Part shown: piece after piece, positions 8,397-62,586 of the stretch | Layout of the letters: each line of letters begins with the position of its first letter | How positions within the stretch are numbered: position 1 is the first letter of the stretch | From: an uncultured Opitutales bacterium | GTDB taxonomy: Bacteria > Verrucomicrobiota > Verrucomicrobiia > Opitutales > Seribacteraceae | Direction: 5' to 3' | Length of the DNA stretch: 64,000 nucleotides | Assembly: GCA_905612515.1 (NCBI GenBank) | Contig: CAJQSI010000007.1 | Span: forward strand, 1-64,000 | The notes under the pieces: model-generated | Databases searched by the model: none | What the model was told of the DNA's origin: nothing | Seen by the model: only the letters and a program-made list of their open reading frames with translations | Translations under genes and position numbers: made by a program

Positions 8397-9455
8397 TTAG
8401 GATTCGTCGGCAGGCTCGCTTTGCGCGAGAACCGAACCAACGGTGACCTGAACCTTTTCGAGAATGGATTTCGTCAGCTTGGCCATAAGCTCGGGGTTCT
8501 CGGACAAAGCCTGCTTGGCCGCTTCACGCCCTTGTCCGACGAGTTCTCCCTCGTAGGAAATCCAAGATCCCTTCTTGTCGAGAATTTGATGTTCTACGCC
8601 AAGGTCGACAACGGAACCCGTGCGAGAAATGCCCTCGTTGTACATGATGTCGAATTCACAGGCCGTAAAGGGCGGTGCTACTTTGTTCTTAACTATTTTC
8701 ACGCGAGTTCGTGAACCAGTGACCGTGCCATTGGATTCCTTGATCTGGCCGATGCGGCGAATATCCATGCGCACGGAACAGAAAAATTTGAGGGCACGTC
8801 CACCGGGCGTGGTTTCGGGACTACCGAACATCACACCGATTTTCTCTCGAATTTGGTTGGTGAAGATGCACACGCATTTAGATTTGGCGATTGCAGCCGT
8901 GAGTCTGCGCATGGCTTGGCTCATCATGCGGGCTTGCAAACCCACCGTGACGTCACCCATTTGGCCGTCCAACTCCTGTCGTGGCACCAGTGCCGCCACC
9001 GAATCCACAACGATGACATCGATGGCGCCCGAACGGATTAGGGTTTCGGTAATGTTGAGTGCGTCTTCGCCACTCTCGGGCTGAGAAATCATTAGGTTGT
9101 CGAGGTCCACGCCAACTATCTTGGCATATCTGGGATCGAGAGCGTGTTCGACGTCAACGAATACGGCATTTCCGCCTCGCCTCTGCGCTTCCGCTATTAC
9201 ACTGAGGCAAAAAGTAGTCTTGCCCGAGGCCTCGGGGCCATAAATCTCGACGGTCCGTCCTCTTGGCAGTCCACCCACACCCAAGGCGAGATCAATGGCT
9301 AAGGAGCCAGTCGAAATCACGGAAACATTCATCTTTGTGGCATCGCCAAGGCGCATCAAGGCTCCCTCGCCAAACTTCTTGTTAATACCGGAAATGGCGA
9401 GATCGAGATCGGCGTTGCCGGTAGAAGATTTTTCTTTGGTTGCAGTCTTAGCCAT
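8397..9455 (-). CDS. recA: Recombinase RecA
   Basis: [49 protein letters not shown]; start chosen at [11 protein letters not shown] rather than the ORF-track extension. Confidence 0.97.
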
Positions 9456-9721
9456 AATGAAAAGGGTTGGTTGGAAAATTAATTTGGAATAATCAACATG
9501 CGGCGTTGCCACACGGAAGCAAGATGTTTTGAAAAAAATCTTCGGTTAGTGCAAAACACACCTCTTGGGTTCAACCAACAAGTACAGGTGGCGTATTTGC
9601 ATCACACAAATTTATATGTGAAATTTACTGTCGAGAGAAGGAGAGGTTCTTCACAAGACAATGCATATTAGTTGCTATGCCTTTTCAACGATCAACATTT
9701 CCAACAGCGGAAGAGAGCTTT

Positions 9722-59032: not shown

Positions 59033-60937
59033 ATGAACAAGAATACAAAGGAATCTACACAGCTTGAACACATTTCGACTACCATATGTTCCTCTTCGAC
59101 GGATGGTTCCGAACTTGTGGCACGCGAAATTTCCGACTTGATCCGTTCACGAAATGCAGACGGACAGCACGCCGTACTAGGTCTCGCAACAGGCTCCACG
59201 CCAATAGGCGTTTACCGTGAACTGGTACGTCTCCACAAGGATGAGGGACTTAGCTTTAAGAAGGTACTGACATTTAACCTAGACGAATACCATGGCCTAG
59301 AACCAGAGCATCCAGAAAGCTATGCCGCGTTCATGGATCGTCATCTTTTTTCTCTTATAGACATCCCCGCAGATGCCACGGTAGTCCCCGATGGCAAGGT
59401 TCCGCGAGAAGATGTTTTCGCTTATTGCAAGGCGTTCGAAGAGCGTATCCTGGAAGCTGGTGGTATTGATATTCAAGTTCTTGGGATAGGGCGAACGGGA
59501 CACATTGGCTTCAACGAACCTGGCTCCGGCCGCGACTCCCGTACGCGTCTGGTACATCTTGACTCCTTAACGCGCAAGGATGCCGCTCGAGATTTTCTTG
59601 GTGAAGAAAATGTCCCTCGCTACGCAATAACGATGGGTGTGGCCACAATTCTGGATGCCAGAAAAATAATCCTTCTTGCATGGGGTGACTCTAAGGCCGA
59701 GGTTTTCGCAAAGGCAGTCGAAAAACCTGTGTCGGATGCCCTCCCGGCAAGTTTCTTGCAAGAACACAAAGGCATTCGGGCATTCGCCGATGAGGCGGCT
59801 GCTGGGGAGCTGACGCGCAAGAAGAACCCTTGGCTCGTTGGCTCTGTCGAATGGACCGACAGGACAACGCGACGATCAGTTGCTTGGCTTTCTTCGCGCC
59901 TCGGGAAGCCTATCCTGAAACTGTTAGATGAGGATTACAGCGAACACGGACTCGCAGACCTTCTCACCGAGCGAGGTTCTGCATATGAATTGAATATTCG
60001 AGTTTTTAATGAGGTGCAACATACCATCACCGGCTGGCCGGGAGGGAAACCTAACGCAGACGATTCCCATCGGCCTGAACGTGCAGAACCGCACCCGAAG
60101 CGCGTGCTTGCCCTTGCCCCAGACCCTCAGGACGGTGCGTTGGGCCTGGGAGGCACCCTGCACAGACTCGTCGATCAGGGTCACGAGGTAACTGTTGCCT
60201 ACCTGACTTCGGGCAACTTGTCTGTTCCCGACGGTGAAGCTCAAAAAGCGGTCGATATCATGCTGGATTTGGATGAGTCGGATTCTTCCGAAAAAGCCTC
60301 CTTTGCCCTTCAGGTCAAAGCTGACCTAGCGGGAAGAGAAGCTTTCGGAGAAGACTCCTCGGCAATACGAAAGCTCAAGGGTCTTGTCCGCCGAGGGGAG
60401 GCGAGGGCGGCAATGGAAATTTGTGGTGTGAATTCCTCCCAAATCCGTTTTCTCAATTTGCCATTTTACGAAAACGGCCGTTTTCGTAGTTTTGAGCCTC
60501 GGGAAGAAGACATCGTTCTCGTGCGAGATCTTCTAGAACAAATTCAACCTCACCAAATTTACGTTACCGGTGTCTTGTCTGAACCAACGACCGTGCAAGC
60601 CGTTTGTTATTCCTGTTTTCAAAAGGCCTTCGAGCTTCTACGGAACGAGGATTGGACAAAAGATTGCCGTAGCTGGAGTTATCGAGGCGACGAGCGAGAA
60701 TGGTCTGTGGAGGATATCGATATGGCGGTTCCCCTAAGCCCTGACGAGTTGGCCAACAAAGTGAAGGGGATTTACCAGCACCGCTCTCAGCGAAGCCAGA
60801 CTCCCGTCACCGGCCGCACCTCCCTTGAAGCATGGCAACAAGCAGAAGTCGCCGATCGAAGACTGGCGGAAACCTACGATCATCTCGGTCTCGCCGAATA
60901 CGAAGCCATCGAAGCCTTTTCTCGGTGTTACCCTTGA
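59033..60937 (+). CDS. Glucosamine-6-phosphate deaminase-like protein fused to a degenerate PIG-L/LmbE domain
   Basis: NagB motifs LATGSTPIGVYRELV, FNLDEYHGL, GRTGHIGFNEPGSG; C-terminal LALAPDPQDGALGLGGTLHRLVDQGHEV PIG-L-like. Start at MNKNTKEST. Confidence 0.92.
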   Translation: MNKNTKESTQLEHISTTICSSSTDGSELVAREISDLIRSRNADGQHAVLGLATGSTPIGVYRELVRLHKDEGLSFKKVLTFNLDEYHGLEPEHPESYAAFMDRHLFSLIDIPADATVVPDGKVPREDVFAYCKAFEERILEAGGIDIQVLGIGRTGHIGFNEPGSGRDSRTRLVHLDSLTRKDAARDFLGEENVPRYAITMGVATILDARKIILLAWGDSKAEVFAKAVEKPVSDALPASFLQEHKGIRAFADEAAAGELTRKKNPWLVGSVEWTDRTTRRSVAWLSSRLGKPILKLLDEDYSEHGLADLLTERGSAYELNIRVFNEVQHTITGWPGGKPNADDSHRPERAEPHPKRVLALAPDPQDGALGLGGTLHRLVDQGHEVTVAYLTSGNLSVPDGEAQKAVDIMLDLDESDSSEKASFALQVKADLAGREAFGEDSSAIRKLKGLVRRGEARAAMEICGVNSSQIRFLNLPFYENGRFRSFEPREEDIVLVRDLLEQIQPHQIYVTGVLSEPTTVQAVCYSCFQKAFELLRNEDWTKDCRSWSYRGDEREWSVEDIDMAVPLSPDELANKVKGIYQHRSQRSQTPVTGRTSLEAWQQAEVADRRLAETYDHLGLAEYEAIEAFSRCYP

Positions 60938-61011: not shown

Positions 61012-62103
61012 ATGAATCATTTACCCGATGAAGTCGGCCAATTATTTTGTCTCGAGGGATGCCCAACATCCACCGTTCCTCACGGCAACGGAAACGTTAA
61101 CGACACTTTTTTGCTTTCGTGCGAAAAGGGCGGGACCGTAACTCGATACACCGTTCAGCGGATCAACCACGAGGTCTTCAAGGATCCTGAAGGCCTTATG
61201 GTGAATTTCTCGCGGGTTACCGAGCACCTTGGCCAAAAGCTCTCCGTCGAACAAACGCCACGCCGCAGCCTGCGGTTGATTCACTCTCAAGACGGCAGAC
61301 CGTTTGTACAAGACTCCTGCGGTAACTACTGGAGAATGATGGAATACATAGATGGCGGAGAGTCGGCAGAAATTCCGGAAAGCCCACGCCAAGCTTATCA
61401 GGCGGCCAAAGCTTTCGGAGAATTTCAAGCGCAACTTGCCGACCTTCCCGGCTCCCCTCTCCTTCAAACTATTCCCGACTTCCACAACACTCGCAAACGC
61501 TTCAATGACTTTCGCAGAGTTGTGACTGAAGATCCCCTTGGGAGAACCAACGAAGTTCGTGATCTAATAACTTTTGCAATAGCTCGAGAATCTTTGGCCG
61601 ATGCCATCAACGAAGAAAATTTTCCCGTTCGCATCGTCCACAACGACACAAAGCTTAACAATGTTTTGCTCGATAAGAAAACCGGCGAGGGAATCTGTGT
61701 CGTCGATCTCGACACCGTTATGCCCGGTTGTGCATTACACGATTTCGGTGATCTTGTAAGGACGGCTGCTTGCTCAGCTCAGGAAGATGAGCCTGACGTA
61801 AACAGGATTCAATTTTTGCCCGAAATCTTCGAGGCTCTTGTTGAGGGGTACCTTGACGCGACCAACTGTTTTCTCAGCCCCCTTGAGGTCGATCACCTGG
61901 CCATCGCCCCACAAGTCCTCACCTACGAATTGGCTTTGCGTTTTCTCGCTGACCACCTAGAGGGCGATATCTACTTCAAAGTAAAACGGCCCGGGCACAA
62001 CCTCCAACGAGCCCGCGCCCAGTTCAGGCTTCTTGCTTCGATGGAAGAACATGTCTCCGAGATGGAATCCATCGTGGCAAAGTTTGCCATGGCCGTGAAA
62101 TAA
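61012..62103 (+). CDS. Aminoglycoside-phosphotransferase-fold kinase, N-acetylhexosamine 1-kinase (NahK)-like
   Basis: VHNDTKLNNVLLDKKTGEGICVVDLDTVMPG, HDFGDLVRTAA, ELALRFLADHLEGDIYFKVKRPGHNLQRARAQF. Confidence 0.85.
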   Translation: MNHLPDEVGQLFCLEGCPTSTVPHGNGNVNDTFLLSCEKGGTVTRYTVQRINHEVFKDPEGLMVNFSRVTEHLGQKLSVEQTPRRSLRLIHSQDGRPFVQDSCGNYWRMMEYIDGGESAEIPESPRQAYQAAKAFGEFQAQLADLPGSPLLQTIPDFHNTRKRFNDFRRVVTEDPLGRTNEVRDLITFAIARESLADAINEENFPVRIVHNDTKLNNVLLDKKTGEGICVVDLDTVMPGCALHDFGDLVRTAACSAQEDEPDVNRIQFLPEIFEALVEGYLDATNCFLSPLEVDHLAIAPQVLTYELALRFLADHLEGDIYFKVKRPGHNLQRARAQFRLLASMEEHVSEMESIVAKFAMAVK

Positions 62104-62166: not shown

Positions 62167-62586
62167 ATGAAAAAGTTTCTTGATGCACAAGAAAGCATTT
62201 TTGAAACAGCTTTGACCGAATTGAAATCCGGTCAAAAACAGTCACATTGGATGTGGTTCATTTTTCCGCAAATCGCAGGGCTTGGGGAAAGTGAAACAGC
62301 ACAGCGCTACGCGATTGCCGATGCAGTAGAGGCCCACATGTATCTCAATCACCAAATCCTTGGCCCACGCTTGTTTGAGTGCACCGAAACGTTGCTTGCA
62401 ATCGAGGGCAGTTCGGCGAACGAGATCTTTGGCTTTCCCGATGATATGAAACTGAAATCGTCCATGACTTTATTTGAGGCAGTCCGCGGACATTCACGAT
62501 CCATTTTCACAAAAGTACTCGGTAAATATTTTGCTGATCGCTGCTCCTTTACGTTGAAGCAGCTCGAAGCGGAAATCTCTGACTAA
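62167..62586 (+). CDS. DUF1810-family protein
   Basis: FLDAQESIFETALTELKSGQKQSHWMWFIFPQIAGLG signature. Confidence 0.88.
   Translation: MKKFLDAQESIFETALTELKSGQKQSHWMWFIFPQIAGLGESETAQRYAIADAVEAHMYLNHQILGPRLFECTETLLAIEGSSANEIFGFPDDMKLKSSMTLFEAVRGHSRSIFTKVLGKYFADRCSFTLKQLEAEISD

Follow-up and report, generated by a model that had tools for sequence, protein, structure and literature searches.

Loss of the zinc site from the PIG-L domain fused to NagB in a Verrucomicrobiota branch of the PRK02122 family

The window analysed here, a 64,000-nucleotide stretch of DNA from an uncultured Opitutales bacterium (contig CAJQSI010000007.1), encodes a glucosamine-6-phosphate (GlcN-6-P) deaminase, NagB, joined through a linker to a domain of the PIG-L/LmbE fold. 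The fusion reading frame is open from 58985 (TTG) or 59033 (ATG) to 60937; the segment 60080-60937, singled out by a first-pass annotation, is its C-terminal half. The features are as follows:

59033..60937, + strand: NagB-linker-PIG-L fusion gene (634 aa, ATG start, PRK02122/NF002557 family)
59111..59818, + strand: GlcN-6-P deaminase (NagB) domain, aa 27-262, placed by residue equivalents and the top fold match, 2bkv
59819..60091, + strand: conserved helical linker, aa 263-353, HTITGWPGGKPxADDxxRPERA, common to dead and intact fusions
60092..60934, + strand: PIG-L/LmbE-fold domain without catalytic residues, aa 354-634
60119..60136, + strand: degenerate motif 1 in the sequence, P363 D364 P365 Q366 D367 G368 replacing PHPDDD
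60578..60601, + strand: degenerate motif 2 in the sequence, SEPTTVQA (T519, Q522) replacing xDPHGTHR
61012..62103, + strand: next gene, a NahK-like N-acetylhexosamine 1-kinase (PF01636; match to 4wh1, E 2.5e-70)

Downstream of the kinase lies a DUF1810 gene (62167-62586; PF08837, 2.9e-52).

The full-length protein scores 817.7 bits against the NCBIfam model PRK02122 (glucosamine-6-phosphate deaminase-like; cutoff 384), covering profile positions 18-651 of 653. It also passes the TIGR00502 nagB model (256 versus a cutoff of 236.9 bits). Pfam places NagB at aa 27-245 and PIG-L at aa 359-512. Full-length homologues of the Bacteroidota type of PRK02122/NF002557 (HPDD...HGTH) are about 45-54% identical to it, and share its domain order, linker, C-terminal strand, and the Thr at the position of Escherichia coli NagB D141. 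The window protein differs from them in lacking the zinc site, the general base, and the HxxH histidines; it carries SGNLxVPD and GRYRxF, whereas the Bacteroidota type has SGNIAVxD and TVKKx. The PRK02122 fusion family is already catalogued.

The NagB half is apparently a GlcN-6-P deaminase of working type. D84, H157, E162, and K221 correspond to E. coli D72, H143, E148, and K208, and are retained in essentially all fusion sequences. The E. coli D141 position (aa 155; 59495-59497) is Thr in the window, in every dead-clade sequence, and in most intact fusions. The top fold match is the monomeric NagB of Bacillus subtilis (2bkv), with 42% identity to the NagB half, a TM score of 0.97 on the target, and an rmsd of 1.2; that active enzyme differs in having no C-terminal domain, and has Asn, not Thr, at the D141 position. 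The R172 phosphate-ligand position (aa 186; 59588-59590) is Arg in most dead-clade sequences, and mainly Ser, Gly, or Lys in motif-intact fusions.

In LmbE/PIG-L enzymes, zinc is held by an HxD1D2 motif together with a distant His, and D1 serves as general base (PMC4101496). The corresponding stretches of the window protein are APDPQDGALGLGGT (aa 362-375; 60116-60157) and SEPTTVQAVC (aa 516-525; 60578-60607). Its HxD1D2 site reads D364-P-Q366-D367, keeping D2 alone, and the downstream HxxH, which supplies the third metal ligand, reads T519...Q522. Five catalytic positions that are invariably H, D, D, H, and H in 70 motif-intact fusions are thus D364, Q366, D367, T519, and Q522: the first His ligand, the general base, and both HxxH histidines are gone, and the second Asp (metal ligand 2) stays. 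This comparison bears out the earlier reading that a His and one Asp had been lost from the first motif and both His from the second.

The earlier view that the fold survives also holds. The domain still passes the PF02585 (PIG-L) cutoff (47.2 versus 28.2 bits), and an AlphaFold2 model of the whole protein (pLDDT 91.6, pTM 0.89) predicts an intact PIG-L half. In a Foldseek search this half matches the Pyrococcus diacetylchitobiose deacetylase (Dac) structure 8bgo at E 2.7e-9; the motif-intact fused domains reach Dac by profile match at 1.8e-9. The window protein therefore shares the fold of the LmbE/PIG-L (CE14) deacetylases MshB, BshB, and the archaeal diacetylchitobiose deacetylases (8bgo, 3wl4), but is without the His2-Asp ligands and the base that every characterised CE14 member is described as having (PMC4101496).

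The same residues occur in three other assemblies of the window's genus (L005, L006, L007) wherever the site is covered. Since these sister assemblies share them, and since dN/dS is low, sequencing error and local pseudogenisation are ruled out.

A search that covered relatives, the phylum, and named genomes yielded 129 fusion sequences, nearly all full length. The complete H-D-D-H-H set is present in 70 of them, from Bacteroidota, Balneolaceae, Ignavibacteria, one Phycisphaerales MAG, one Gemmatimonadales MAG, and a second set in Opitutaceae-type genomes. All 56 fusions of the Verrucomicrobiota branch lack the first His, and nearly all also lack both HxxH histidines. Four of the 56 have Asp at the base position, one has His at the third-ligand position, and none has the full set. 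The commonest form is SPEPxDDxxxMGGT ... DPSSVxxxC. At the third-ligand position P, S, Q, A, and T replace one another freely; the general-base position is variable too (Q, S, L, T, H). Named members include Opitutaceae, Opitutales, Cerasicoccus frondis, and Verrucomicrobiaceae. One genome (G160) encodes one dead and one motif-intact fusion. Separately arising partial losses were seen in Bacteroidota-type fusions (L143, L090, L107): LDDLH (G067), RDDHG (a Bacteroidales MAG), and HDDNH.

The alignment with relatives that the first-pass annotation had proposed thus finds the motif loss to be common to the whole branch, and its description of the domain as catalytically dead is strongly supported in terms of the known mechanism: ligands and base are lost, and the loss is fixed across the clade. 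By that mechanism the fused PIG-L domain is almost certainly dead. An alternative is a deacetylase that still works through substitute ligands, such as Glu/Asp364, Asp367, and another residue. Position 364 is indeed acidic and 367 mostly so, but nearly all members have no metal-binding residue at the third-ligand position, and the general base, the HxxH histidines, and the substrate-side motifs are gone, which makes this the least credible of the alternatives.

The dead copies form one clade (SH-aLRT 97, from a quick tree search, no bootstrap). This tree used only the NagB and linker columns, omitting the PIG-L half, and is therefore independent of the motifs. Taken together, tree and motif distribution suggest that the simplest history is a single loss of the active site, in the common ancestor of the PRK02122 Verrucomicrobiota branch; by the same simplest history, the loss is old enough to be common to Opitutales and the Verrucomicrobiaceae group. 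Because the whole branch has the same loss, the dead PIG-L half is no local accident but a genuine pseudo-enzyme domain, inherited from long ago.

What, then, maintains it? Within the window's genus, the PIG-L half has a dN/dS of 0.037-0.081, which does not exceed that of the NagB half. On a fixed topology, the tree length of the PIG-L half relative to NagB plus linker is 1.55-1.61 in the dead clade and 0.95-0.99 elsewhere; with the motif columns removed, the ratios are 1.55 and 0.99. The PIG-L half thus evolves about 1.6 times as fast as the NagB half and linker in the dead clade, and at an equal rate in the rest, so purifying selection on the dead half is weaker yet still real: constraint is relaxed, not gone. 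Several residues that are invariant in intact fusions disappeared alongside the metal site (D514, W554, F592, G594, D596, R598, F600, R603, and R607), as expected if substrate binding was lost too. Others are newly conserved: E364 (95%; D in the window's genus), R485, F487, and L476. R485 and F487 are present in 100% of the dead clade and in about half of the intact fusions. These new invariants may indicate that the pocket was rewired and did not simply tolerate change.

Such rewiring is what an allosteric sensor might show, in which the old pocket, having lost catalysis, would control the NagB half by binding a metabolite, perhaps GlcNAc-6-P or a similar sugar phosphate. The clade-specific conservation of E364, R485, and F487 fits this reading, as does the purifying selection on the PIG-L half. 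So does the state of the E. coli allosteric site: the Lys160 position is V or I across the fusion family, and any allosteric control would therefore need another site. But the new invariants are few, overall constraint is relaxed relative to NagB, and operons with NagB alone exist, so that we consider the sensor doubtful, though the strongest of the rivals. A more specific version, a Verrucomicrobiota-wide pseudo-deacetylase clade whose zinc pocket, with an acidic residue at the His position and invariant Arg485 and Phe487, was rewired into a sensor that controls amino-sugar flux through the deaminase, is marginally more doubtful again.

Another possibility is a vestigial domain that does no good and no harm and simply awaits deletion. 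The faster evolution of the dead half is in keeping with this, and so are the short fusion-type NagB proteins of G048, G059, and family f19, which stop immediately ahead of the linker. Yet no full-length member, in either of two large groups of the phylum, has an interrupted frame, dN/dS is low, and 43 columns are at least 95% conserved; we regard this explanation as improbable. The short proteins may derive from the fusion, to judge by their Thr signature and common end point rather than by the tree alone. At the G048 locus, a NagB-only protein of fusion type is followed 3 kb later by another NagB fragment (L160:5250-6065 and 9185-9457), which suggests truncation and partial duplication of a fusion gene.

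The neighbouring genes point to amino sugars. In two Opitutaceae MAGs, the same NahK-like kinase is fused in frame ahead of NagB and the dead PIG-L domain (L036:3774-6902, 1043 aa; L038:3756-6908, 1051 aa). This putative single reading frame links both the kinase and the NagB-PIG-L protein to amino-sugar use. Other Opitutales typically have an operon made up of an AraC-type regulator, the fusion, a ROK-like kinase, and a stand-alone PIG-L. The kinase-like protein (for example L013:92-1522 on the - strand, L159:6611-8014 and L039:6808-8277 on the + strand; motifs GFDLGGSDRK and GxSMGTS) has no Pfam or NCBIfam match at 1e-3. A profile of nine sequences reaches the ROK structures 1z05 (5.5e-5) and 3r8e, and it looks like an unmodelled ROK-like family.

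The stand-alone PIG-L passes PF02585 and has the full motif, AHQDD...KHDTH or close forms; AHQDD-type loci include L020:3790-4638 and L039:8292-9143, among others. Outside the window's family, 16 Opitutales genomes have a fusion, and 13 of these have an intact copy, versus 8 of 34 fusion-less genomes (Fisher p 2e-4), and in 11 genomes it lies no more than about 3 kb downstream of the fusion. It also accompanies some motif-intact Opitutaceae fusions, and it is missing from the window's own family. The strict proposal that it arose to replace the dead domain is therefore rejected: it represents redundancy, not one-to-one replacement of, or strict compensation for, the lost site. The window's genome does encode a further PIG-L protein, with AHPDD (L001; G000:C63:62591-62950 and flanks), next to an aldehyde-dehydrogenase-like reading frame and an apparent separate glucosamine-6-phosphate isomerase-like one.

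Operon linkage to an intact PIG-L, and the hexameric state of related deacetylases such as Pyrococcus Dac (PMC9779004), would suit a docking platform, on which the dead domain pairs with the active stand-alone enzyme and GlcN-6-P is handed directly to NagB. The window's own family keeps the domain without that partner, however, and the stand-alone and fused domains are only distantly similar. We therefore think docking very improbable.

With the window's family set aside, 31 near-complete genomes have a dead fusion. No nagA match at E<=1e-20 was obtained in 12 of them, of which 10 have the stand-alone PIG-L. The other 19 have a nagA-like match, nearly always below the TIGR00221 cutoff. With 19 genomes on one side and 12 on the other, there is no clean pattern by which the presence of nagA explains the loss.

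In G059, the corresponding operon slot holds NagB alone, a 247-aa protein that bears the fusion-type Thr signature and stops just short of the linker; the ROK-like kinase and PIG-L come next. The Opitutales operon slot thus exists with an intact, a dead, or an absent cis-domain.

Our preferred explanation, which we hold to be probable, is that of an old fusion whose redundant cis-deacetylase died and whose domain was kept as a structural part. The PRK02122 ancestor of the Verrucomicrobiota branch would have lost the PIG-L active site once. Amino-sugar deacetylation would be the work of NagA-like proteins and, in most Opitutales, of the stand-alone PIG-L in the same operon. Stand-alone PIG-L or nagA-like genes are present in most dead-fusion genomes, and the activity and substrate of the PIG-L are inferred. 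The linker and C-terminal half may have become integrated structurally with the NagB half, aiding folding or assembly, so that the dead domain persists. The NagB half is presumably active, deacetylation is presumably done elsewhere, and the dead half presumably persists because it helps folding or assembly, or possibly because it regulates; the old pocket might hold a regulatory ligand. Of the sensory, scaffold, or allosteric function first suggested for the domain, the idea that the domain matters stands, given purifying selection and the predicted fold, but a structural or residual role is favoured at least as much as sensing, since its rate is relaxed compared with that of NagB and a sister operon has NagB alone.

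Even where the fused domain is intact, its role as a deacetylase is putative, and no measured activity for any member of the fusion family was found in the literature. A search of open full text (most subscription journals lying outside its scope) for deaminases combined with PIG-L, LmbE, or GPI-deacetylase found no paper on the fused domain or its loss. A paper on a chitin locus describes a F. johnsoniae NagB, which may or may not be a fusion; the protein could not be expressed, and chitin use was unaffected when it was deleted (PMC5127042).

Under the family models, these proteins are annotated as deaminase-like fusions that include a PIG-L deacetylase domain. Throughout the Verrucomicrobiota branch, that half is no deacetylase by any known mechanism, and GlcNAc pathways predicted from it would therefore be wrong there. 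In Opitutales genomes without nagA, the stand-alone PIG-L is a candidate deacetylase that may replace NagA. Moreover, because one operon slot occurs with the fused domain intact, dead, or absent, the role of the domain is directly testable.
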